A DNA stretch of 64,000 bases from Hydractinia symbiolongicarpus (lineage: Eukaryota > Cnidaria > Hydrozoa > Anthoathecata > Hydractiniidae), in contig NC_079876.1 in NCBI RefSeq assembly GCF_029227915.1, forward strand, positions 26,385,828 through 26,449,827. Direction: 5' to 3'. The notes beneath the pieces were generated by a model. It was not told the DNA's origin. It saw nothing but the letters and a program-made list of their open reading frames with translations, and searched no databases. Position numbers and translations under genes: made by a program. Shown piece by piece: positions 21,818-54,312 of this stretch (the first letter of the stretch is position 1; each line of letters begins with the position of its first letter).

Positions 21818-24800
21818 CTATAATTTCGATTTAGCCTGGACCGACTTCATTAATTTTTCTAATTTTAACGCTTGGGACATGTCTCCTTTGATCTTCAGTT
21901 TCCCGCCCATAAAAGCTTGCATCGAATTCAGTTCTCCATTGAACATTTTCTCAAAGTCCACACTGTCCATGATCATTCTGCAGGTCGCTGCACTCTCGTT
22001 GACTGGGTTGAAAGTCACTGAACCTATGAACAACCGGATAAACAAATGCTTTTGTAAACAAATAAAAAAATTTTAAACAGGAAGGGAAGAAAGGTTTGCG
22101 CAACAAAAGATTGTGGAATTAAAGAAGTTTTAGTGGAAAAAAAACATAACTTCCGTAACTAAGTACTGAATTGGTGCATGACATTTTAGAATTAATTATT
22201 GCGAATCTGATATTGAGTCAAAAAATTGCAAATTGAAGTAATGGATCCATGAATTTTTCCTCGAAATCGTTTGATAATTTTTTTCATCTTGGTTATTAAG
22301 ATGTTCATTGAAATTTTTTTCCTCCTATAAATATTTATATAACAAAACAACGACAGAAATAACTCGTCTTTTTCCTGGAAATCGACAAAATTAGATGGCA
22401 AATTTGATTTTTTTTTTCTTGGGATTGCGGAAATAAAGATTTCGAATAGATCTTTCCCGAATTTCCTAATTATGTCAAACTCAATTAAAGAGGTCGATAA
22501 AAAAATGATTCTTATCTCTAAGTTCCTTAGCAAAAGGTAGCATAAATTACTTAATTTTGTAAATATTTCTGTTCGTTAAGTGCCTCAATTGCGAACTGAA
22601 AGTTACGGTCAAACCCTTCATAAAGCCGAACTTTCCGAGAATAGCCTCGTTTTCAAAATAAATAATTTCTTCAAATCTAAATAAAATCCAACCAGAATAT
22701 TATATTTCTTTAAAATCTTAAGTTTTGTCATGGTAATTTGATATTCTATCTGAATATCCTTATTTGAAGAGCATAGAAACATTTTAAAATTTTGGATGAC
22801 GTCATAATTATTATAATTTATGAAATTCGGGAAAGGTGTATTGCGTAAATTTTTCTAGAAATTGCGGTAGAAAAGATTGTAATTTTGAACAAATTCGCAA
22901 TCCTTAATTCCGCAATATTTTTTTGCGCAATAATTTCTTAGGTAGGGTTTACAAAGCTTAAAGATAAGACAAATAGGAAGCGGCGAAAATGTTTACTTGT
23001 TGGAAATTCGATGTCCTTTTAAAATATAATTATTGTTGATTATTTTTCGTTATTTTTCGCAAGTTCCTAAAACGCATTTCGAAAAGATTAACTTTCGCAA
23101 TCTAGTCATGCTGAGATATTACGGAAGCACAAGTGAAAAATTATATTCGCGAAATAGTAGCACTTTTTTTTAAGATAAGGTAGCGTTCAACCGAACTTGC
23201 TCGTATCACAAAGGCTAACCATAATTTTCTACAAAAAAAGAATGACTAAAAAAACATTTGACATCAAAATATTGTTTGTACGAAAATAAGAATCTTCGTA
23301 CAAACAATATTTTGAGCTCGCTCCATCTTACCTGCATCGTGTTGCAAATCAAGCAACCAAACACCTGGCTCGGCACCGGTTAATTCGAACGCATAAACAG
23401 CCGAAACTTTCCGCACTAATTCTTCATTTAAAATGGACTCGATGTGATTGAAGAGTGTCGTTACACCTGCTGTTGGACCAGATTTCTCCTCAGTTTTTCC
23501 TCCGATATTGCCTGACCTGTCCATGAAGAAGTCCTCTGCCCCGTCAACGAAGTAATCAGGGATCAAGTTGGCACCTAAAGGGAAGAGCTATATATTGTGG
23601 TGGTATAATTGGCATCAAATCCAGCAGCATTCACGGGTGGTTCGAAGCGGAATCTAAGAGTTAGCGCATGCGCGGGTTTTTAACGACATCCGTGGAGGAA
23701 TAATGGCGGCCGGCATCAAACTACGTAGTCAAAACAAACCAAGAGCAAGTTTAAATCTATTGTTATCCTCCCATCTAATATTCCAATAGATCTAATTTAG
23801 CCGTAAACGAACATGTGATAAGTCAACGAAGAGGCTCAGCGAAACATTTTTGTTGTAGTGGAGCTAGGTACGAGGAACAAGACTACTCAAGTAGATGAAA
23901 GAAAAAATCAAGATTTTTGCTTATTTGCGTTACGTTGCTAACGTCAAGGTAATTAACTTGTTATTCAGAGTTTTCTAGGGCTGTAGAAAAGTTATTTTAC
24001 ATCAAGGACACATGGCCCTAAGAGAAAAATACAACTTTGAAGTGCTTTCAGTTTTTTTTAATCAGAAAATGACTTTTGAAGTAGGCATATTTTTCACAGT
24101 TTCACGATAACTATCAAATACGTATGAAAGCTTCAATATCGTTTAACTAAGCCAATGTGGCATTACTGTGTTATAAATTTGCTAGAAACTGGTTAACACA
24201 AGGTTGGTTAACATAAAATATTTATATATATACATGCTAGGTAGGCGACAAAATACAGTCACATCCACTTAACAGCTAGTAGAAAATTCTGTCACTACTC
24301 TTCCTCGCCTTTTGTAAATTTACGCTTTTTAGCTGCTGGCTTCAAGTCTTGAGCTTCTGGATTTGTTGTCAAAAGGTGCTGTTTCATAATGTATTTGAGC
24401 CTGTCAACTGGGTTTTTGATGTTTGAATAATTTATTCTCATACGATGCAAATCGTGGTGAATAGATTCTCCACCTTGTTCACCATAAAAACCTAAGCCCG
24501 TTCTCCACTTGTTTACAAAATCCAATACATGGTCTTCTAGTATGTGCAGCTTTGGACTGATGTATATTGAAGGCCAATTAACTCTTAAATAACACATGAA
24601 CTGATTGATAGATGTCTCTAAAAGTTGGTTAAACAAATTTTATAAATTGACTTTTCTACTTTTAAGCATTTCATAAAAATCAAACTTGCATATTTTACCT
24701 AAATTTGATAACATTTCTTGGGTCATAATACATGAAGAATTGAATATTGAGTGACACGAACCATACAGCTTGAACAGTTGTTCAAACTTCTTGCATGTTT

Positions 24801-27800
24801 CTTGACACTCCAGATATAAAACTTGATCATCACATTGATTCTGTACAATTTCAGGAATACGATCACATAAATACTTTATGTTGCCATCCTATAATATTGT
24901 CTACTGTTTGTTGTAAACCAATTTGTGAAATTATACTTATGCATAATACAATTTCATATTTTTCGTTTACTTTATCTTGTTTCAATACAAATTGTATAGC
25001 ATTGTATTGAAACAAGATAAAGTAAACGAAAATTTTTATAAATTGCAAAAATAAATCTAACCTTGAGCATTTTATGACAATGGTTGCCAATAAAGCTTTT
25101 TCCGTGGTACGCCTGCCTCTCAACACCAAGCTCCTGCAGTGTATCGTCTAGGGATGATACGCAAGGACCAGATCCAATTTCCAATTGGTACTTTTCTTTG
25201 AATGCTTTTATGCTTCTATGTTTCTCCTTCAGTTCAAATTCTAAGTTATCCAACTCTGGTTTGTAGTTTTTTTCAAACTCATCCTTGGTAATTTGTTTAG
25301 ATATAACCATCCAGTTCATATGTTCCTGCTGGTTATCATACTCGTCCTCCAATTCTTTTGACTCATTTTGTAAATTGCTAAATATATACATATATATATA
25401 CATATATATATAGATATGTTATAAAGAAATGCAGCCCAAGATATGATTGGAAGTAGTATTAATAATAATAAAAATCTAGTAAGGTGTACATACATTAAAA
25501 TTCTCATATTTGCCATAAACTCTGCAAATTTAATATTAATTTCACCATCAGTAGTTTGAGCATGAATTGTGGCAATTCTTAAATCAACTTCTTGACAGTA
25601 GCTTTCCAAGTTGTTGAACATTTTTAAATATATCCCAAGTGTTAGGTGGAGCCCTGGTATAGCCACCTATATAAAAAGTAATAAAAAATAGGTTTGCTGA
25701 ATTTTCATAACATTGCACGAAGTACATTATACTTACTTGTTCTAGGGGGATGTTAAAGAAGCAATCATGTATCACATTTTGATAGTGTTTGGCGTTTTTC
25801 ACTAACGATCCATTGTCACGAAATCGCTGCAGGTTTGTGTTCAAACTGTCCAAGCTACGTTTTGGAAAAGATCCACGAATAAATTTTGGGATGCAAAGTT
25901 GGTCAGTCTTTATGCTGCACCAGAGACAACAGTGACGGCCTGTAAAATTTAAAACACTAAGGTAATTTTATAGATAGATTTTATTTTATATAAGACACAT
26001 TGTATTATTGATATATAATATACACATAATTTTTTTAAGGAATCTGAAGTGATATGTGCCCAAAGAAGGAACTTTTGAAGCTATTTTTGTTTTTCCTTAA
26101 TGTGAAATTTGATATTTATTTTAATTTAATAAAACATGTCATTACCATTTGCCCCACTAATTCCATACATAGCACATAAATACTCGTAATCTCCATACAT
26201 AAAGAGACGGATCTTCAAATTATTCCACTTCTGTTTTTGTAGAATCCTAATTTGTGGTTTAAATCTTTCTAAGCAGATTCTTAAATTTGTCACGGAATCC
26301 TTTGCCTCAAATATGCTGAAGATGGTCGTATTTTCTTTGCGATTAGGGTTTCTAATATTTGCCACTTGATAGCTCATTTTGAAACTGTTATCACCATGGT
26401 CACCACCAATTTTAACATGTATTTCATCATCCGGTATAAATGAGTGATGAACTAATTGATTATTTTTACTCAGTTCTGTTAACCGGTTTAATATATGACC
26501 TACAACATTGTAAAGGTATACCCAAGGCTTGGGATCTACAACAAGCTGCTTATTACTACTACTAAATTTTCGAGTTAGAGGAGCTAGCTCAGCAACAAGC
26601 CCTTTCCCTATCCACTTGTCTGCAACCTGTCTTGTTGTTTTTTCAGATGCAAGTTTGATGTCAAAAGTGGCAAGCCATCGGGAAATATTTCGCATAAGGT
26701 TCCATGGCAAATTCAAGGTGGCTTTCATGGCGGCAGCAGTCTCAGCTGGAATGGAGACATGATGGATTTCTGCGATTATTTGTTTTCGCTGCTCCTTGTC
26801 ACATTTTTTCATGATCGCAGCTGTTTGTTTCACAAATGCATCATTTGAATTTCCTGAAATCATGTTGATTATATTTTTAGCTGTTTTGCTCCGATCAGAT
26901 AAGCTTCTTTTACTACTTTCATTTGATAACTTTCTTGGCATGCTGATCGGTGTAACCGTTATTGGCTAAAATAAAGAAATGTTTTTTATTTTTAGTCTTT
27001 GTTAGATATATAATATATATATATATAGTAGAAATATGAATAATTTTCAGGTAAATGCAGAAAAATATGTATATTCTAAATGTTTATTTATATACCTGTG
27101 GTCCTTTTGTAGCAAATTGAATTGTTTGATTCGGTAGTTTTGACTGTTTAATTTTGATACCAACCAAATGTGTCATGCATTTTTCAATAATTGTCGGTAC
27201 AGGCTTAGACGGACTTAGCTTTAAAATGTCGTTGGGTGTCATCAATTCTGGCTCAATGGTTTTTTTCGGCCTTCCACCTTTTTTAGATTTTATAGGCCGT
27301 CCCCCTTTAGATTTAATTTTCGAGAAATTTGATGCACTGCCTTCTTTCCATCTTACTGGGCATTTTGATGTTTTTGTGCCCCGCAAATTACAATTTTGCA
27401 TTGTGCAGTAACATTTATTACAAAATTTTGGTGGATGTATTTTGTTTACATCTTGCTCAAAGTCCTCCTGAAATGCTGACTGAAGGCCAGAAAGGTTTTC
27501 CTTTACAAGATAGGAAACTCTTCCATTCAAAATATTTCCACATATGCGACAAAGTTTGGTTAGATCTGTATGTTCTGCCATTCTATAGCTATAATTATTC
27601 TAAAAAATAATATTATGTAACCAGTTTAATCGTTGCCTTTCCAATTATATTTTTTAACTTAGTCAAAAGCTTTTTGCAAACATAAAGTTTCACATTTCAT
27701 GACCATAAGCTTTTTTTCCTGTCTGTGCCACCATTTTAAAAATTTGAATTTTGTTCAACTTTGATGACAAATATTTTTCAGAAAAAAACTGAAAGCAGTA

Positions 27801-30800
27801 TGGAACTTTAAAAAATAGAAAGTATAATCCTTGGGCTTTCGTAACATATAAGTTTGATTAGGTGAAAAACTCTATATAACGTTATAGCCGACCTGTTAGC
27901 TAGGTCACTTTTTGACTCGACATTTACCGTCTCGTCTTATTTACGTTTGTTGCGCTTGGAAACGACAACAAAATTGTTTTTTGATTTTTTCCACAGCATC
28001 TGAAGACCTTAGATGCTAGTTAAATAGATTTACATAAGGCCACGCGAGAGTAAAATTTCTGTTATCGACATTAGAAGTTGTGCCTTTATCAGCAACTTTG
28101 TTACAAAATTTTGGAAGCTCGCCCCAGACTCCCGGCAAATGCGCTTAAATTCCATTGTACGGCCGTTTGAATCACCCGTGCATTCGGAGCAGTAAAAATG
28201 ATCGAATTTAAAATTTAAGTTCTCCCTAAAGTAAAACAATAAAAATATAAATGTAAAAAATTTTCCGACTTTATCAAAGAGACAAATAAAATCGAAATTG
28301 TTAGAGATTTTTGAATCAGAAACAATACTTTATTAAAAAGGGGTACCCCTTTTTCCCCTGTTTATCCCAGAACCTGATTCTTTCCATGTGTATTTTAGGT
28401 TTTCTTCAAGAATATCAAAAAATGTCCACCATTTTCCAAGGTACCTTGAAGGTAGAAACTTTCGCGGAAAAAAAGTTTGGTGGAAAATAAATTTGGCATA
28501 AATGACGAAAGGTAATTTGTCGGGCGACAAAATTTGACGGGAATTTTATTTGGCAGAGAGCTAAAATAAATAATTTTTGCGGGAGGTGTTGATATTCAAA
28601 AATGGGCAATGTACGCTCATTGCTACGTGATGTTATTGATATCTCATGGTACAGAAAAAAATTTGTAATGTCAAGCTATAGATTTGTGGACTTCTAACAA
28701 AAGGATTAGATCATATTTTTTTTGATGACATCACCTATCTGATGAGGTGTACCGGCATTTTTAGATCAATAAAGAAAATTTGATAATAACCGAAAATTAT
28801 TTGCGAGCCAAAATTTTCTGTCGACCCTGAGTGACGACAGTTTGAGGCGAAGCACCGACAAGTGTGAAGAGATAATGTTTATCTATGCTGAAAAACACAA
28901 TAAAATCGTTTATCGTACCTTTCACCCAAGAATAGTCCTCTAAATCTGTAACACCCACTTCTCTTAGAGCTTCCTCATCGATAGCAAAATTACCAGTGTA
29001 CGAACGACTATTTCTTGTCAGTATCACATAAGCTGCATCAGCCATGATGTCGGGTTTACGACTTTGATTCATTAATTCGTCACCGCCTAGCATTTTGATG
29101 GCAGCTGTTGCTATACCTACAAGAAAAGTGCATAATGGTGTCTGTATCATTTTTGTGCATTCGCAATTTGAGAGCTTTAATCTCAATTGTGTAAATTTAT
29201 ATTGTTGCGCTAAATGCCGGATGGCAAAGATGAGATATATTATGTGATCCATTTTTCGGATAGGTGTAATCCTAGCTACATTCTGTAGCCAAAGTGACAA
29301 GCTAGCCAACCAAATTATGGCTGCGTATACATGCTGACATGTTGCAACTAACATAAAATAATTTTTTTTAGTTTTATGCTCAAAAGAACTGGTGAAACAC
29401 AATTTGAATACATAAATAATTTTATTTTAAATATTAAAGAATATTTTTGTTGGAAGTTTAAAAGAACTGGTGAAATTCAATTTGAATATAAAACTAATCT
29501 TATATATTATATGTGTATCATACTCGTGCGCAATTTTTCTAACCATTACACTACCTTTTTATAAGAAAGGGACATGCAAGAAAGTAGTCCTCAGGGTTCC
29601 AGGGTATTTGTTGACGTCAAGTTACGCCCTGCCAACGTTTCGTTAACAAAACTCTTAACGATGTCTGAACGCTGAAACTAGAGAAATGCTAAAGACAATT
29701 ACAGTAGGCTGGATGGGTTGAGTGGTTGAATATTTTGGCTAGGTGTTGATAGGTAGAGTCGAGTCTGGGTGTAGGTGTGAACACACGGTACTACCCTTAC
29801 AGTAACGGCAGTTCAAAGTCTTCATTTCTAAAAAGAACCTTAGTGATTTCAAAATTAAGGGATCATGTGTTTTCGTGTTCTATTTTATTACTCGATGTTT
29901 CGGTGAGGATACTTCATATTGTACAAATAAATACCTGTCTTCGGCCACAGAGCATTCACAGCTACACCATCATTTCTGAATTCTTCGGCCATTCCAAGAA
30001 CGCACATGGACATTCCATATTTTGCTATCGTGTAAGCTAGCATAACAAACGAATACAACCATAAGCGAAAAAACAATTTCGCAACAGGAAGAAAGCTGCT
30101 TCACAGCTCATTTTTAGGATCGGGGGTTTCCTTTTAACACTCAATCAAAACGGTAAATACAGCTTCTCCAATCTTTATCGGAAAGATGGGGTCCAATCAT
30201 CGTTCATTGGGAAGGAAGGTCTATTAATAGAACTCTCTTCCCAATAAACTTGGGTGTTTTGTAGGTGGAAATGCCAGAAGTCTTTAGTTGTAAGAATTTA
30301 GATGCGCTTGTGACCTTTTGCTTAGTTTGCTTTACTAATAAAAACAATTATCGAGCCCAACAAGTAATTTTCTCTACTTTAATTTGAATTTAAGCAGCCC
30401 AGCATTAAAAAAACTCACCAAACTGGTGAGTTTTTCAAGGGTAGGTACTTATTGGAAGAGCCGTTTTGTTAAATTTATTTCGCAAACATTTGGCACTTAT
30501 AGGGGGGGGGGGCTTAATTGATGTATTACAGTAATTCTTACAGTATGATAGCTAACACTGAATGGCTGATTGATGTGTTACAATTATTCTTACAATATGA
30601 TAGCCAATAAATGGCTGACTGATGTTTTAGAATAATTCTAAACGTGTATACTCAACACAGAATGACAAAAAAAAAATCTTACCTGTATGGTTTTTGAACC
30701 AGACTGGTTTCATGTTAAGCGGTGGACTGATATTTAAGATGTGAGGATTTTTGCTTTGTTTCAAGTATGGTAGACAAGCTTGAGAACTAAATGACATAAT

Positions 30801-45800: not shown

Positions 45801-48115
45801 TTTGAAGATACCTTATTGGAAATAAAGTATCAGGAATATCTAAGTATAGTCTTATTTTTTTCTTGTACCGTTTCATAACAGAGTATGAGATAACAACAAA
45901 ACGAATGTTGCCCCGAACTTTCACAATTGCTTACCTCTTAGGACCGCTTTAATACACCTAGTTCCCAGTCCCTTTCCATAAAAATGCGGCAGTGTACCGG
46001 GTAGCTACGATAAATTTGAAACTTTTTAAACCCGGTGAAACACTAAAATTAGGAAAATAGCGAGCGTAGAAAAAATCCAACCGAAAAACAAACAAGCAAC
46101 TCTTGTCTCAGAATTTAAGATACAAAATCCGAATTTTCACGACCGACACCCAAAAGTTGAAACATGTAGAAGATTTGCTACGCCCGCATGGCGGTATTCT
46201 GAAGGAACCAAGCAGACATGAATTTATGACCAATTTACTCCCCGTTGTTGCATAAAAAAAAATGCGTAATGGAAAGATAATATTAGCATGAGAAAATATT
46301 TAGACTTCAACCCAAATCTTAACCTGATTTCTGAGAAACTCGGTTGTTCAAAAAAAACGTGTATTGTCATGTTCCACTTATAATATCTTGCTAAGCATGG
46401 AAATCTGCAATGGTATGGTCAGTAAGTTTTTTTTATAGGCTGCCATATGTAAAACGCGCCATATTTGTTTTTAATTTTTCGCAAAGTGAAAAACAGAATC
46501 TAAACAATTATGGCTGATTTTAAAACTGCAAATAATGCGAAACGATTAGGAAAAACTGTCAACTAACCGCCGAACACAATAATTATGGAAAAACCTTTGT
46601 CCCCATGGCTTGTTGCCTGGTGCCAAAGCGAGTTTCTTCGCCGCCAGTCTCGATGTCAAAAAGGCAAGAACTCCTGGGGAAGAGATTGTTTTTCTGCGTG
46701 CTTTTGTTAGTAGTATTGTCATATGAAAGTATTACTTTTTTTAAACGTTCTACCCAAATAGAACAACCTTAAAAATTCTTCTCTAGAAATGTTCGGAGAG
46801 AGAACGGCAACTTTGTTTTGCTGGTTTTAACCTTGGAGGAAAGAATACGGATTCATCAAATTCATCATCAAATTATCTAATTGTTTTTATAACCAATCAT
46901 AGTTGCGAATTGTTTTTCACGAATAATTTAGTCACACAACCGCCAAAATTTCAAATTAAGTTTCTATACAGACACCTGCTAGAACCTCACGCAGTGTTTT
47001 AATAGATTTAAAAGAGTTGTTTCTCCTTCCGTATTCTTTCCTCCAAGGTTTAACTTGTTTTGTGCATGCGTACTGAAAGAAATTACATACTTTTCCGGCG
47101 TAGATGGTCCCATCCTTGATACGTTGAGTCGCTATAAAGAAAGTCTTGTACTGTAAGTTGTAGAATCGGAAAAAAAGCTTTGAACACGTCTGCCGCACAC
47201 GGAAAGGTTCACCTTAGGGCCCACAAATTTGATAAAAATACCATACTGAGATCATGAATAAGTTTAAACTGTGTAAATCTAGCATAAAAATATCATAATT
47301 ACATGTGGCGTCGAACATCGAAATTGGCGTTGTAGTTGTAGCTTTATTCTTCATCATACGTTTTAAGCAATTTCAATCTATTTTAAAAAATCTATTTTGG
47401 CAAAAAGGAATTCTTACATCGAAAAGTCGTACGTACCCATCATACCCTTATTAACCGCTTACATTGTTATTTCCACCACTTGAATACTGACAATGCTTGC
47501 TCAGAATATGTCTTCTATGCAATCAACATGGCGACTATTTGTCACGTTATCCATAACCATAATTCAGTATGCATAGCCAGCTGCAGCTGAACTCGCCCTA
47601 ATTTATTTTCTCTAGTAAGTAAACAGAAGTAAACAGGTGCCAACAAAGACAAGTGATAAAAAAAAACGCGAGCCTCTTTTTATAGCTCTCTTTAACATAT
47701 ACTGACTCAGCGTGTGCATTTAGCTTAAAATCTGATCTATCTTTCGCAGTAAGGTTTCTTAAAAGTTGCACAATATTTCGTGTATTAATACCCCTATTCT
47801 ATTTAAAGCGACTGCCAAAATCCCTACTTTGTGCTGGAAATAAAATAAATTTGTGCTTGGACCAGACTGAAAATTACTAGCAACCAAAAGTAAGGGATTC
47901 AAAAATTTACTAAAAACGATTATAGAATGAAGTGTGTTCATTGTGAAACATGAATGGCTTGTAAAGGGGCTAAAACTGAAATTAATTTTTTTTAAAAAAC
48001 AAACATACGGAAAAAAATTGAAGATACATTAGGAACGACTTGTAGAAAAACGTTTAGATTAAGTTAAATGCGTTTTAGAATTTACTGTATATGTTGATTT
48101 GTTTATTTTTTCTAG
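42817..48115. other. Intergenic region between GIPC and the large disordered-protein gene
   Basis: About 5.3 kb upstream of two divergently transcribed genes. It holds half-copies of the palindromic element (43484-43504; 46590-46695), an inverted repeat (46825-47053) and AT-rich sequence. A few minus-strand frames (for example 44910-45176) are open for about 88 codons but show no recognisable protein, so I call no gene. Confidence 0.5.
46825..47053. repeat. 27-bp inverted repeat with a 175-base spacer
   Basis: Arms near 46825-46851 and 47027-47053 share TTAACCTTGGAGGAAAGAAT followed by ACGGA in opposite orientations, with a one-base difference near the AAC end. This may be the stem of a MITE-like element. 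Confidence 0.65.
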
Positions 48116-48129
48116 ATCTACCTGCAAAG
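48116..48129 (+). promoter_or_regulatory. Splice acceptor and 14-base 5' UTR before the large gene's start
   Basis: A pyrimidine-rich TTTATTTTTTCTAG ends at 48115, 14 bases before ATG at 48130. This fits a 5' untranslated cis intron or a spliced-leader acceptor. The ATG at 48091 lies inside the acceptor tract, so it is not used as the start. Confidence 0.6.
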
Positions 48130-51100
48130 ATGACGACGGAAAGCGTTCCACAGGAAGAATCATCCCATGCGGTCCGTCCGATTGTCAACAATATAAAAGT
48201 TATCAACTATGCTATGAATATAGTACCGAATGAAAGCGGACCAATCAAGACATTGCCCAGAATAAAACCCGTTGAAAGTTCCAAACCAAGTGTGATACCA
48301 GGTGTTAAAAGAACCTCGTCAAAAAAGGTGCAGCCGCTTAGTTCATTCATCAAAGGCGATGCAGAGGAAACAGAAAATGGCTACGATGCGTTTTCACCTG
48401 GCAGTGTTAATCCGACTACGACTTCTTCATCTGTAGGCAGGGATGCAACATCTATAGCAATTAAACTTAATTCGTCAAATAATTCCGATAAACTTTCAAC
48501 CGTAAACAACAATGTCCCCGACGTAATACCCACGTCGATTTTTTACTCCCAACCTGCTAGCAATTCTGAAAATTCCAACTCGAACAACGGTGCTGTTAAA
48601 AGCTTTGTAAATTCCTCAGCCGGACCATCTCTTAGTAAAGAAGAGAAAAAAGGGGAAAACGTTGAAAAAATCGTGAAAACAATACAACCTCCAAGTATGC
48701 ATAATACTAAAATCCTAAACGAAATTCAAACAGCTTCATCGAGTAAGCCTACTGGAAGTAGTAGCCTGACCAACCAACCAATCTTCTTTAATCCTAATGC
48801 CGTAAAATCTGACCAGTTAAGCGAGAACATTAAAAATGGAGCAAACAAGACGATAACGTTAGCTGGTCAAGAAAAGGCGCCAAAAATTGAAAAGAAAAAT
48901 GAATCTAAAAAAGTGAATAATATAGTAAAGGAAAAGAAGTCTGCTTCGAAACAAGCTAACATGATTGAAGTAAAAGAGCAAAACTGGAAACCAACTGCGA
49001 AATCCGCCACAAGTGCAAGTTCTAAAATTGTTGTTGTATCTAGCCAAACTTTAGCCCAGTTGAAAAAGCAACGTGAGAGGGAAGAAAATGTGGAGAAGCC
49101 GAAAAGTATTGAAGTTATCACAGATCATGTTAGTTCTAGTAACGGACGTTCCACAGAAGAAACAAGTGAAAGAAGTACTAATTCCAACTCAGAAAGGACG
49201 AAAAATATAAACAGTACTTCTAAAGACCATCCAGTTTACAGAAAAACAACTGTAAAAGGTCCCACTGAAGATTCTACTTCCTCTTTAAAGCTATCTGAAG
49301 CAAAAGTGAATTATCAAACAACCGCTTTAACTACGCCTCAAACTGCAAACCAGGTTAACCATATTGTACCAATGAAACATGACATTTCAAAAGGAAGCAA
49401 ACCTGTTTATACCACGACTAATGTTTCACGTCAGCAAAATGTTAAAGAAAAGCAAACTAATTTGGAAAAAAAGACTCAAGAAAAGACCAAACGCGGACCC
49501 ACTAGTGATGATCAAAGGAAAGTACGTCTAACGAAAACACATTCAACTCACTCTGACAGCTCTATTCCTCAAGTGAGAAAACCTGCACTGAAAAAACAAA
49601 AGTCAGATAGTGCTGTGAAAGTCCAAACCTTTAATTCGAAACCAACTAAAACCATCGATGGTAAGCCGACAAACAACAAGACTGAAGCTAGTGTTAACCT
49701 ACATGTCACATCCGACCACAAACGACATGCGGAAAATGCTACGATCATACGCCAGCTTGATCCTACTGTTATCTCGTCCGTTGTAGCTAAACCCACTGAA
49801 ACTGTAAAAACTCGAACACAGGACATTGTTAGAACTGTATCAACCGCCCCACCAAATAGAACAACAGCAACTCAAAACACAGGAGAACACGTTAAAACTT
49901 CTGTCGTCAAGACAAAATCAGAATCCACTCGTGTGATCAAAACAACAGAAACAACAAGAAATTCAGCTACGACTTCTGTTTCCGCAACAGTGAAAACATC
50001 AAATGCTGACATATCGATAAAATCACAAAAGAAACACACAACCGATGATGAGATTAAAACAACCACTGTCCAACCTACAGGAACTGCAAAGTCTGAAGTG
50101 AAACGAATGGGAACACCCCATGCAGTAACCAGTTCAGAAGCACCAACTACCACATCAAATCTAAAAAAATCCGCTGCTAAAACAAACATAACCCAAATAG
50201 AAACCAGTCACAAGCCAGTAACAACACCTTATGCAAACCAAAATACATCAGTAACCGCAGCGTCGAAAAGTCAATTGGATTCCACCTTTAAAGCAGCTAC
50301 AATTTCAACAACAAGTACAGCTACTTTGGGATCAAACTATGTCATGAAACAATCACCTGAAACATACCCACAAACTAACCTGGAGAAGCATATATCAGTA
50401 ACAAAAAGCGAAAGTGTAGTAGCGGTGAAGAGTCATGGTTCCCAGAAAACATTTGATTCGCTAGTATCCAAAGTAGAACCATCATCAACACCAGGACTGG
50501 CTACCACCAATAAAAATGTAGAGAAGAACAAGATGTTTCATGATTCCAGTTTGAATCATAGTAAACCTGATGTACTAGCATCTACAGTGGAATATTATGA
50601 ACAAAATCATACCGAAAGCAAATCTAAAAATAATGGTAAACAAAGCAAGTCTGAAGAAAAAAAAGCAAGAAAGGACAGTAAAAAGAAGAAGAAAGAGAAC
50701 AAAAGTTTATCCAAAGCCAAATCAGACAGCGAGAAATATAAAACCAAAAAAGATAAAATGCTCCTATCAAAACAAAAATCCACTGGTTACAATCAAGATC
50801 AGCAAAAAAATCAACTTTTAAATCATAACGCCGATAAGTTTACAGCAGAGTTGCCTTTACGCAGTAACAACAATATACCTGCACCCGTGTTCACAGACGT
50901 CGTAGGTAGCAAAATCTCCAAAGTTGTTCCTGAAATCATAAAAAATGATACAATAACAGACGTTTCATCTGCAAAGGATGTTATTCATAGTGCTGTCAAA
51001 AAACATTCTGATACATCGAAGTCTGTATCCACGAACATTGCATCAACTGCGGCTACAGATCCGGAAATCATCACAACTCAACTACCAAACAAGCACGACT

Positions 51101-54100
51101 TTATAGAAAAAGAGGCTAGCCTTACACAAAGTAAAGAAGTCATTAAAACCACCATATTGGACACGACGAAGCCTGCTGTCACAAACCAAAATGAAATCCA
51201 AAGGAATGAACCTTCAAAGATTTTATCTAGTGTTTCAACCATCACCACAGATAGACAGTCTGGTGGAGAATTCATGTCGTCCTCAAAAGCAATGTTGTTC
51301 CGAAAAGCTTCTGAAAATCACATAGTTAGGGGAGATAGACCTGCATCCAGCAAAGCTCCACTTGAAAGTAGAATGTCGCTACCTGTGAATTTGCCTAAAG
51401 AAAATGCTGAAGAGATAGCACAGAGTTTACAAATTAACAAACCAATTTTGACGGTTGGTCAAGCGTCATCAGAGCAGTTGCAACCAAAACCGGAAAATAA
51501 AAAAGAAATTGGTGTCCAAATGGTTTTACCAGAAAAAAACAAAACCGACCAGGACATTCTACATGAACATCTAAATATAAAAGAACGACACCAGGTTAAG
51601 AAATCGTCTTCCGTAAAGAGATACGTAGATGTAGTCAACAAAAAAGAAGACATTGCTCCCATTTTGAATGATTCATCAAAGGGAATCAAGCGCACGAGAA
51701 GTTACTTGGAACCCAATTCTTTAACAAAGAAGAAGATAAACACTGATTTGACAACAATAATGCCTCCAGAACCTCCTGCAGAATTTTATGCTCAGTATAC
51801 AAAGCCAGAAATAACAGAGGAGGTAGTTTCAACGGTAACCGAAGTTCGAAACGTTGAAAGTTATCCAGATCCAGACGTGCGAGTTGTAGAACCGCCTAAA
51901 GCAACTCGCGATAACATTCAAGCTAGTAACCGCAATGCCACATTTATTGCTACAAACAATTCTCAAGCTTCCGTGGAGGAACTCAAGCCACATGCAATCT
52001 CTTCAGAAGATGCTGAGCTTATACCAAAAAGGAATCACACTCCACCTATTGTGTCTGCTAAACCAAAACCCATGAAAACATCCGTGGATAACTCCTTATT
52101 TTGGGGGAATTCCAAAGAACAATCTACCCTGTATTCAGAAACTACAGGGATGATACAAAATAAGACAGCCTCGATGTCAACCACAAAACATGAAAAAGAA
52201 ATTAGTATGGAGAAAGTGGAAGCAGGATCTATTGCAGTTGAGAAGACCAGTAATACATCCAAGAAAGCGACGTTTAATACCGCAGATTTAAGTGAAACAG
52301 ACCCAATAATGGACGTCGCTATATCAGAAAAACTAAGCAAACGAAAAGCACCACCACCTCCTGTTATGCCAAAAACATCGAAAGCTATAAGATATTCAGC
52401 ATCAAAAAAAATCGAAACTCGGTACAGCGTCGAAACAACTAAGGAAACAACCTCGGATGTAGAGGCCGTGCACAATCCGAAAAAAATGGAGTTGCTGCAG
52501 AAACTAAAGGAGAAGTCTTCGACAAGTTTTGCGGAAGAAAGTAAGATTCAACCACCTTCTCCTGAAGAACCTTCTCCCGAGCCACTTTACGCAAAAGTGA
52601 TAAAGAACAGAACTAACAAATTAGACGAGCAGCACCAAGGTGGAGAGATCGAGCGAAAATACGATGGAAATTTGACGAATACAGTGATGGAAGAAAACCA
52701 TCGTGAAAGCAGCAGTTATATCACCACAGGAGAATATCAACAAGGAAGTAATACTTTTATCATCCCAGGAGGAGAGTTACAAAATGTTGATAAAACAGAA
52801 CATACGCTCGACGTTTCATATGAAAGTCCTTATGCAGAAATATCTAATATATATCCAGCCAGCAGACCATCCTATCCTGAAATCCCAGATCCTGATTATG
52901 AGGACGACACCATAGAATTTAAAATGACCAACAGTCAGAGTGTAATCGCAGAGGAAGCACCTACCATGAACTTGGATGCAGGTGTTGTTGAAAAAGAAAA
53001 GATTGAGGAAGTTCCTGCTTTAGATATCAATCAAATTGCGGTAAAAACACAGAATTCTGAAAAACAGGTGGAAAATTCTTCTCCGGTGGAAAACTCGAAC
53101 AAAATGCCAGTTATCCCTGATCCTGACTATAAAGCATCTGCCATGGGAGCGGATGTAGGTGCTGTTGAAAAAGAAAACATCGAAGAAGTTCCTGTGTTAG
53201 ACATCAATCAAATTGTGGTGGAAGCAGAACAGTATTCAGAAAAACAGTTGGAAATTTCTTATCCGGTGGAGAGTACTAAAGTAATGCCAGCAATTCCTGC
53301 ACCTGATTATGACGAGGTTACAAGAGATGAAAAATTGCAAAGTATTGGCACAAGTAATCATCCAGATGCTGATCTTACATCCACTGAACCAGAAAAACAG
53401 ACAATTGTAAGGTCAACTTCAATTTTAGTCGAGAAAGAAGAGAACTTGAATTTGTATAGATTGATTCACGGCAAAGACAAAAACATTGAATCTGTTGAAA
53501 AGATAGAAGAAACTCGCGTTAAAACAGACCAGCAGGACAGCAGCACTCCTCCTGTAAACAAGAAAAAGGCAGCACAAAGTGACTCCACCTCGGACGTTCC
53601 CAAATCTTTATTAACGCTATTTAAACCTACCGAGGTAGCGGCCCAGAACCAGCCTAGAAAAGTTGTTGTTAGAGTCGAAGTACCCGATGAAGAGACAAAA
53701 GGAAGTCGCCGATTTAGTCTCGGTAGTTTTAAGAAAACAAGACAAGGCAGCAAGCATGCTGTGATATCGCCGGATGTAGCACCAAACGATTCCAACGAAA
53801 AAGACGAGTTTAGAGCAAGGTCGCATTCGTCTCGATTATCTAGTTTTCTTGACAAGGCTAAATTTAGAAACAAATCGAGGAAAAAAGATCACAAAAGACC
53901 ACAGAGTGATATCATATCAGACAGTTACATGAACTTTTTATCTGGTCCTGATATTAGTGCAGAGACCGAAAACATGTTCAATACTTTTGAACAAACCAAA
54001 GAAGAGAGTACATCCCAAACTGTTCCTTTTTCAAATAATTTACCAGGTCTATCAGCCGCCCAATCATTAAACTTTCTAAAGAACGAAAATAATTATCCTC

Positions 54101-54312
54101 AGCCTTTACCAAACACGAACATGGAAGGCTTTTACGATATAAAACAGTTCAAGAAAATTGAAAAAACTGCTCCGGAAAAAGCGTACTTTGAAGACAGCGC
54201 TGATAACTCAGATGAGGAAGAAATCACCTACGAAGGAGATTACATTGACGCCTCGTATGAAAAACGGAAAATGAGAGAAGTACGCGGTTTCGACGGATTT
54301 ATGATGTACTGA
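48130..54312 (+). CDS. Large intrinsically disordered protein, 2,060 residues, single coding exon
   Basis: I do not recognise the family. No signal peptide or membrane helix is visible, so it is probably cytosolic or nuclear. It is Ser/Thr/Lys/Pro-rich and low in hydrophobics for about 1,400 residues, with a Lys-rich block near 840-885. Further on: a Pro-rich SH3-type motif KRKAPPPPVMPK (about 1402); tyrosine motifs EPLYAKV (Y1487) and SPYAEIS (Y1568, SH2-type YAEI); three IPxPDY motifs (Y1590, Y1667, Y1727); a 59-60-residue tandem duplication; and basic NKSRKKDHKR (about 1910). It ends EVRGFDGFMMY, almost identical to the end of the small convergent gene at 55890-56222. The combination suggests a signalling or cytoskeletal scaffold, by inference only. 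A 6.2-kb uninterrupted exon is unlike its multi-exon neighbours. Confidence 0.9.
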   Translation: MTTESVPQEESSHAVRPIVNNIKVINYAMNIVPNESGPIKTLPRIKPVESSKPSVIPGVKRTSSKKVQPLSSFIKGDAEETENGYDAFSPGSVNPTTTSSSVGRDATSIAIKLNSSNNSDKLSTVNNNVPDVIPTSIFYSQPASNSENSNSNNGAVKSFVNSSAGPSLSKEEKKGENVEKIVKTIQPPSMHNTKILNEIQTASSSKPTGSSSLTNQPIFFNPNAVKSDQLSENIKNGANKTITLAGQEKAPKIEKKNESKKVNNIVKEKKSASKQANMIEVKEQNWKPTAKSATSASSKIVVVSSQTLAQLKKQREREENVEKPKSIEVITDHVSSSNGRSTEETSERSTNSNSERTKNINSTSKDHPVYRKTTVKGPTEDSTSSLKLSEAKVNYQTTALTTPQTANQVNHIVPMKHDISKGSKPVYTTTNVSRQQNVKEKQTNLEKKTQEKTKRGPTSDDQRKVRLTKTHSTHSDSSIPQVRKPALKKQKSDSAVKVQTFNSKPTKTIDGKPTNNKTEASVNLHVTSDHKRHAENATIIRQLDPTVISSVVAKPTETVKTRTQDIVRTVSTAPPNRTTATQNTGEHVKTSVVKTKSESTRVIKTTETTRNSATTSVSATVKTSNADISIKSQKKHTTDDEIKTTTVQPTGTAKSEVKRMGTPHAVTSSEAPTTTSNLKKSAAKTNITQIETSHKPVTTPYANQNTSVTAASKSQLDSTFKAATISTTSTATLGSNYVMKQSPETYPQTNLEKHISVTKSESVVAVKSHGSQKTFDSLVSKVEPSSTPGLATTNKNVEKNKMFHDSSLNHSKPDVLASTVEYYEQNHTESKSKNNGKQSKSEEKKARKDSKKKKKENKSLSKAKSDSEKYKTKKDKMLLSKQKSTGYNQDQQKNQLLNHNADKFTAELPLRSNNNIPAPVFTDVVGSKISKVVPEIIKNDTITDVSSAKDVIHSAVKKHSDTSKSVSTNIASTAATDPEIITTQLPNKHDFIEKEASLTQSKEVIKTTILDTTKPAVTNQNEIQRNEPSKILSSVSTITTDRQSGGEFMSSSKAMLFRKASENHIVRGDRPASSKAPLESRMSLPVNLPKENAEEIAQSLQINKPILTVGQASSEQLQPKPENKKEIGVQMVLPEKNKTDQDILHEHLNIKERHQVKKSSSVKRYVDVVNKKEDIAPILNDSSKGIKRTRSYLEPNSLTKKKINTDLTTIMPPEPPAEFYAQYTKPEITEEVVSTVTEVRNVESYPDPDVRVVEPPKATRDNIQASNRNATFIATNNSQASVEELKPHAISSEDAELIPKRNHTPPIVSAKPKPMKTSVDNSLFWGNSKEQSTLYSETTGMIQNKTASMSTTKHEKEISMEKVEAGSIAVEKTSNTSKKATFNTADLSETDPIMDVAISEKLSKRKAPPPPVMPKTSKAIRYSASKKIETRYSVETTKETTSDVEAVHNPKKMELLQKLKEKSSTSFAEESKIQPPSPEEPSPEPLYAKVIKNRTNKLDEQHQGGEIERKYDGNLTNTVMEENHRESSSYITTGEYQQGSNTFIIPGGELQNVDKTEHTLDVSYESPYAEISNIYPASRPSYPEIPDPDYEDDTIEFKMTNSQSVIAEEAPTMNLDAGVVEKEKIEEVPALDINQIAVKTQNSEKQVENSSPVENSNKMPVIPDPDYKASAMGADVGAVEKENIEEVPVLDINQIVVEAEQYSEKQLEISYPVESTKVMPAIPAPDYDEVTRDEKLQSIGTSNHPDADLTSTEPEKQTIVRSTSILVEKEENLNLYRLIHGKDKNIESVEKIEETRVKTDQQDSSTPPVNKKKAAQSDSTSDVPKSLLTLFKPTEVAAQNQPRKVVVRVEVPDEETKGSRRFSLGSFKKTRQGSKHAVISPDVAPNDSNEKDEFRARSHSSRLSSFLDKAKFRNKSRKKDHKRPQSDIISDSYMNFLSGPDISAETENMFNTFEQTKEESTSQTVPFSNNLPGLSAAQSLNFLKNENNYPQPLPNTNMEGFYDIKQFKKIEKTAPEKAYFEDSADNSDEEEITYEGDYIDASYEKRKMREVRGFDGFMMY
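52957..53310 (+). repeat. In-frame tandem duplication (59-60 residues) in the large protein
   Basis: Copy 1 (from 52957) and copy 2 (from 53134) share VEKEKIEEVPALDINQI / VEKENIEEVPVLDINQI, SEKQ, PVE and MPxIPxPDY. A third, shorter IPDPDY precedes them at about 52882-52899. Confidence 0.9.

Follow-up and report, generated by a model that had tools for sequence, protein, structure and literature searches.

A complete and very probably recently mobile Chapaev-superfamily transposon with a shortened RAG1-like zinc module in Hydractinia symbiolongicarpus

We analyzed a stretch of 64,000 nucleotides from the Hydractinia symbiolongicarpus genome (hereafter the window, to which all unlabelled positions refer), in which a 4549-bp DNA transposon lies at 23632–28180 with the ends CACGGGTG and CACCCGTG. 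The left terminal inverted repeat (23632–23646, plus strand; 15-base core CACGGGTGGTTCGAA) lies 3' relative to the gene of the element, and the right one (28166–28180, minus strand; core CACGGGTGATTCAAA) lies 5'. The element is bounded by a target-site duplication, CATT, at 23628–23631 on the left and 28181–28184 on the right. Subterminal GCGCAT boxes occur at both ends, with starts 33 bases in on the left (23664–23669, plus strand) and 37 bases in on the right (28139–28144, minus strand; ATGCGC on the plus strand). A preliminary description of this DNA had proposed these coordinates, the inverted ends and the CATT on both flanks, all of which are borne out by the window sequence, and had placed the element in an early-branching animal, which agrees with Hydractinia being a cnidarian.

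The gene of the element runs on the minus strand in seven exons. Exon 1 (27581–27096; start codon at 27579–27581) encodes a RAG1-N-like zinc module at residues ~4–63, matched by PF12560, and then two GGRP motifs, which we take to be AT-hook-like. Exon 2 (26965–26146) holds the DUF1280 core (PF06918, 61.1 bits with a cut-off of 25), including D351 (26399–26401) and D421 (26189–26191), and exon 3 (25939–25737) holds C440 and C443. Exon 4 (25666–25494), exon 5 (25377–25062) and exon 6 (24888–24699) are followed by exon 7 (24617–24295), which carries H754, H759, E780 (24466–24468) and the stop codon. Joined at GT/AG sites, the seven exons give 836 residues with zero stops, in line with the unbroken seven-exon gene described previously. 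This splice model is supported, because the top four homologues align over 99% of the protein at 43–45% identity. Two further inverted repeats were observed within the element: a perfect 31-base repeat with an 11-base loop (24960–25032) in the intron 3' of exon 5, and a perfect 16-base pair (24043–24058 and 27782–27797) located ~412 and ~384 bases inside the element ends.

We searched the H. symbiolongicarpus assembly HSymV2.0 (480.9 Mb, 76 contigs; the window lies in contig C2) for copies of the element. The end pattern CACGGGTGRTTCRAA gave 41 exact matches genome-wide versus 8 for the reversed control, and these matches resolved into 19 end pairs and 3 single ends. Since an exact 4-bp target duplication also accompanies 18 of the 19 pairs, the element ends exceed what chance would give. 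Thirteen pairs, the window copy included, are full length (4549–4551 bp) and 99.87–100% identical when aligned to the window copy; three of them (L009, L019 and L024) equal it across all 4549 bases, making four identical copies. The further full copies sharing these ends, which the preliminary description had named as a check, are thus present and near-identical. Pairwise substitution between full copies averages 0.054%, with a maximum of 0.13%. Each of the 16 substituted columns is confined to a single copy, and the sole variant common to two copies is an AT insertion. Selection on the exons was considered: 5 of the 16 substitutions are exonic, compared with 55% of the length (binomial P 0.047), numbers too small for such a claim. 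An uninterrupted 836-residue frame is found in all 13 full copies, with an identical protein in 10 and one residue change in each of the other three (H335N, R437C and D385N). The D385N change, in L023 (G000 C12:2351431-2356579), apparently falls at position D386 of homologue P0001, which is invariant among 34 aligned homologues.

The remaining copies are shorter or diverged. Internal deletions were found in five pairs (L015, L016, L022, L025 and L026), and L020 is a diverged miniature of 259 bp. L015 and L016 are probably one insertion that was duplicated along with its surroundings, because their 300-base flanks are identical. With a 164-base left-end query we located 22 places in the genome, 17 at 100% identity, 1 at 99% and 4 diverged at 79–94%. 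Two diverged left ends (L027 and L028, G000 C4) show 91% identity and have a common 12-base flank; they probably represent an older relative copied within another repeat. Judged from the sequence identity of its copies, the family appears to have multiplied very recently.

The target sites were examined next to the copies. All 13 full copies have an exact 4-bp duplication and all 13 four-base sequences differ, which is the outcome the preliminary description had looked for at other copies. The length of the duplication at L020 is ambiguous, as the duplication sits in a T run. Flanks were joined across the insertion for six sites (of 17), and junction-spanning matches were obtained for four, namely L009 (100% over 181 bases), L012 and L013 (up to 99%) and L010 (up to 91%). 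For the window and L011, the joined flanks gave no junction-spanning match among the matches listed (26 of 3096 candidates scored). Among the compared loci, 9 of the 19 sites have junction-spanning matches, several of which are neighbouring units of tandem repeats; the matches of L018 and L021 have gaps where the flanks join and do not count as clean empty-site evidence. The genome contains empty sites in which the target sequence is present once. Eight copies (L010, L012, L015–L017, L021, L023 and L026) were seen to be inserted in tandem or dispersed repeats, some of the same repeat family. A single domesticated host gene of transposon origin could likewise present as an open frame within a host intron; such a gene is refuted by the near-identical copies, each site being a different one, with target duplications on several chromosome-sized contigs, and we give this explanation practically no credence.

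The element has the features of Chapaev transposons, whose hallmarks are described as CAC/GTG ends and 3- to 4-bp duplications (PMC4079192): its termini are 5'-CAC ... GTG-3', its duplication is 4 bp and its transposase is of the DUF1280 DDE (Asp-Asp-Glu) type. The Chapaev3 subgroup, for which the same source gives a 3-bp TWA duplication between A and T, was ruled out by the 13 different 4-mers at the 13 full copies. With Chapaev (CMC group) the element further has part of the RAG1-N-like Chapa domain in common, namely the first module; it differs in that this domain is shortened, that RING is absent and that the four best full-length relatives found are 43–45% identical to it. We consider it very likely that the element is a complete, autonomous Chapaev-superfamily cut-and-paste transposon of H. 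symbiolongicarpus that was mobile very recently and possibly still is. In the proposed mechanism, the spliced mRNA would be translated into the 836-residue transposase, whose DNA-binding parts would recognize both ends; D351, D421 and E780, placed in an RNase H-like fold, would cut at CAC/GTG, and the element would join the target with a 4-bp stagger, the repair of which would leave the duplication. It is also conceivable that the same Chapaev family jumped recently and has since fallen silent, for example through small-RNA silencing, as five copies have internal deletions; however, four copies are identical over their full length and every full copy has kept its frame open. This is a serious possibility, though one we lean against.

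The candidate DDE core reported earlier stands up to comparison. In addition to the DUF1280 match, the core alignment places D351, D421 and E780 on D600, D708 and E962 of RAG1, and C440/C443 and H754/H759 on its zinc-binding C-x2-C and H-x4-H pairs. In P0037, the RAG1 residues occupy these positions once an offset of 8 is allowed for. We found 35 homologues, all with DUF1280 in precomputed Pfam lists. D351 is conserved in 35 of 35 aligned rows, D421 in 31 (2 gaps, 2 other residues) and E780 in 24 (11 gaps). A Pfam scan of 34 of these rows (P0015 omitted) identified DUF1280 in 34, RAG1_imp_bd in 17, the RING model PF00097 in 10 and zf-AD in 3 (best E 4.3e-5).

At the N-terminus, exon 1 matches RAG1_imp_bd (PF12560) at 25.4–25.5 bits (cut-off 23.3), and the match is confined to the first zinc module. 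The window protein retains C-x2-C (residues 11 and 14) and HP-x3-C-x2-C (49–57), while motif and Pfam comparison found neither the W-PH-C-x2-C second module nor RING in it. The RAG1-N domain claimed in the preliminary description is therefore right in kind, as far as the first zinc module goes, but partial, lacking the second module and RING. A non-RAG1 zinc finger had also been named as a possible outcome; exon 1 matches the RAG1 model alone at E 1, but the zf-AD matches in 3 of the 34 homologues qualify this result. Against a model of the vertebrate RAG1 N-domain built from 18 of 77 RAG1 rows, the window protein scored 16.4 bits; when its first 165 residues were shuffled 200 times, the score never exceeded 4.9. 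We regard the shortened zinc module as a homologue of the opening part of the RAG1 N-terminal domain. Some zf-AD likeness of this module was also noted: L032 scored 21.5 bits, short of the cut-off of 28, and PDB entry 7po9 gave E 0.025 for that region. As zf-AD is a dimerisation domain, the likeness would hint at a role for the module, and our guess is dimerisation or partner binding.

We consulted a core tree, a quick one with support from the Shimodaira–Hasegawa-like approximate likelihood ratio test (SH-aLRT) only, in which rows were labelled from precomputed Pfam hits and a motif search and several rows have no N-terminus. The window falls in a nine-row clade (support 99) with RING recognised in none. 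Its sister clade has 11 rows, of which 10 are named Hydra vulgaris and 8 carry RING; the H. vulgaris DUF1280 proteins with RING include LOC124815234 and LOC105850185. RING is further present in P0019, P0022 and P0034, which belong to neither clade, so its loss on the side of the window is the simplest reading. The second module appears to have been lost locally, in the family of the window, because P0001–P0004 of the same clade still have W-x2-H and C-x2-C; P0021 has W-x2-H without the last C.

The relation of the family to RAG1 can be seen at the level of profiles. In a published survey, RAG1 groups with DUF1280 in a single clade, and DUF1280 is identified as the Chapaev transposase (PMC3985635). 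The profile of the 34 homologues found RAG1 in PDB (6oem, 1040 residues, positions 101–386) at E 3.8e-16. In profile–profile comparison of the family with RAG1, the core scored 41.8 versus a control maximum of 25.7, and the N-part scored 197.6 versus a maximum of 24.5, the controls being 30 each (one reversal and 29 column shuffles of RAG1 rows) and containing no unrelated families. Several points weigh against our interpretation of a recently mobile Chapaev element related to RAG1. The N-part profile takes in RING-bearing homologues, so that 197.6 is the score of the family and not of the window protein alone, and the core-to-RAG1 match by itself is modest (hhalign probability 40%, P 3e-4). 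The window protein alone reached only E 0.56 with solved RAG1. The Pfam RAG1 core (PF12940) was matched by none of the 34 homologues at E 0.01, and one RAG1 N-terminus used as the query yielded 77 proteins, 0 with DUF1280, so the link between RAG1 and DUF1280 is invisible to single-sequence similarity. One end pair of the 19, L022, has no exact 4-bp duplication, and expression, catalysis and present-day mobility are properties that we infer.

A RAG-like (RAG1L–RAG2L) or Transib transposon, direct kin of RAG1, would account for the RAG1-like N-terminus and for the aligned D, D, C-x2-C, H-x4-H and E in the same order; the first N-terminal zinc module and the aligned catalytic residues and zinc-binding pairs are common to the element and to RAG1 of jawed vertebrates, RAGL and Transib. 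However, the core belongs to a different family, with DUF1280 in 35 of 35 homologues instead of the RAG1-core model; PF12940 was unmatched by the frames with exons 1, 2, 3, 5 and 7 at E 1. The duplication is 4 bp and not the 5 bp given for Transib and RAG (PMC8355894), RING is absent, and no RAG2-like gene was noticed in the window's list of open reading frames (no RAG2 profile was run). We judge a RAG-like or Transib identity very improbable. A RAG1 core profile search of the genome gave no match, but its control was equally silent, so that absence is not shown. The preliminary description had also drawn a comparison with N-RAG-TP, known from Aplysia and described as entirely RAG1-N-like sequence (PMC8355894). 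By that review description the likeness holds, both being mobile elements with RAG1-N-like sequence, but another label suits this element better, given its complete DUF1280 core.

Other Chapaev families occur in the same genome. A profile search found RAG1_imp_bd at at least 60 places and DUF1280 at at least 77. The N-terminal exons of L030, L032, L040 and L047 (4 tested of 20) match both RAG1_imp_bd and the RING model, all over the Pfam cut-offs, and thus retain the W-PH-C-C second module and the RING that the window element lacks. A second family comprises 21 DUF1280 matches with an identical score, and compared pairs among 12 of its loci are 99.3–100% identical in aligned blocks. In this family, which includes G000 C2:6864672-6866738 and L067–L078, the RAG1_imp_bd exons are mostly open for 347 residues. 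At L064 (G000 C14:18470527-18471150), the DUF1280 match lies in an open frame of 1030 residues, which greatly exceeds the frames of the other matches in length.

The two ends of the element may be bipartite and unequal, as the inner GCGCAT follows the outer octamer CACGGGTG after 24 bases on the left and 28 on the right. None of 2000 first-order simulated sequences (mean 1.03 boxes each) had GCGCAT near both ends, a significance that is overstated because the box was picked after inspection. Comparison with the ends of other families covered some of their 5' sides. In L029, L037 and L039, which have a common start CACGGTCG and three different flanks, and in L036, GCGCA lies ~40 bases in; in L030, L031, L033 and L034 it lies 23 bases past CACGGG, which is a putative end only. 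Exceptions are L035, with GTGCA instead, and L048, with no box in the 45 bases available; the L042–L047 group starts with CACGC. RAG follows a 12/23 spacer rule, to which the unequal 24/28 spacing can be likened, as it can to the ProtoRAG spacers of 27/31 (figure legend in PMC8355894). That the element is still active and has bipartite, unequal ends of this kind is a long shot. If it were true and the transposase needed one end of each kind, an asymmetric-end rule would exist outside the RAG/Transib branch, which would suggest that such a rule, together with a RAG1-type N-terminal module, predates the RAG/Chapaev split.

The preliminary description, which is partly supported overall, had presented the element as bearing on how RAG1 acquired its N-terminal domain. 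The novelty is smaller than proposed there, as Kapitonov and Koonin (2015) had already described Chapaev elements that carry the Chapa domain, two subgroups of them with RING as well, had noted losses between clades and the meaning for RAG1, and had concluded that Chapa and RING became fused to the core in a common ancestor (PMC4411706). The element alone leaves this published account unchanged. The repeat table of the HSymV2.0 genome paper has no Chapaev line (PMC10411563), and a text search, mostly of open-access papers and without Repbase, where an earlier entry is possible, found no paper linking Hydractinia with Chapaev. We regard the element as one of a very young family within a known superfamily; its RAG1-N domain is shortened, and it is probably autonomous and perhaps still mobile. 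With the evolutionary message already published, what is new is the experimental handle. Hydractinia is a model animal for stem-cell biology (PMC10411563), and the fresh-looking, RAG1-related transposase would make the role of a RAG1-N-type zinc module testable by removal, for which the families with the full RAG1-like array of Chapa and RING in the same genome offer a natural comparison.

Two host exons flank the transposon on the same strand as the transposase gene, and the preliminary description had assigned them to HSDL2, which consists of an SDR domain and then an SCP2 domain. The exon within 28797–29426 matches short-chain dehydrogenases, with 3sc4 first (E 2.2e-14) and HSDL2 (3kvo) second (E 2.9e-11), and the exon within 23264–23587 weakly (E 0.5) resembles domains of multifunctional enzyme 2, presumably SCP2-like. 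The flanking exons appear to fit an HSDL2-like host gene, a setting that is supported but not proved. Elsewhere in the window, a 2077-residue open frame at 48079–54312 is likely a host gene, with one relative at 83% identity.

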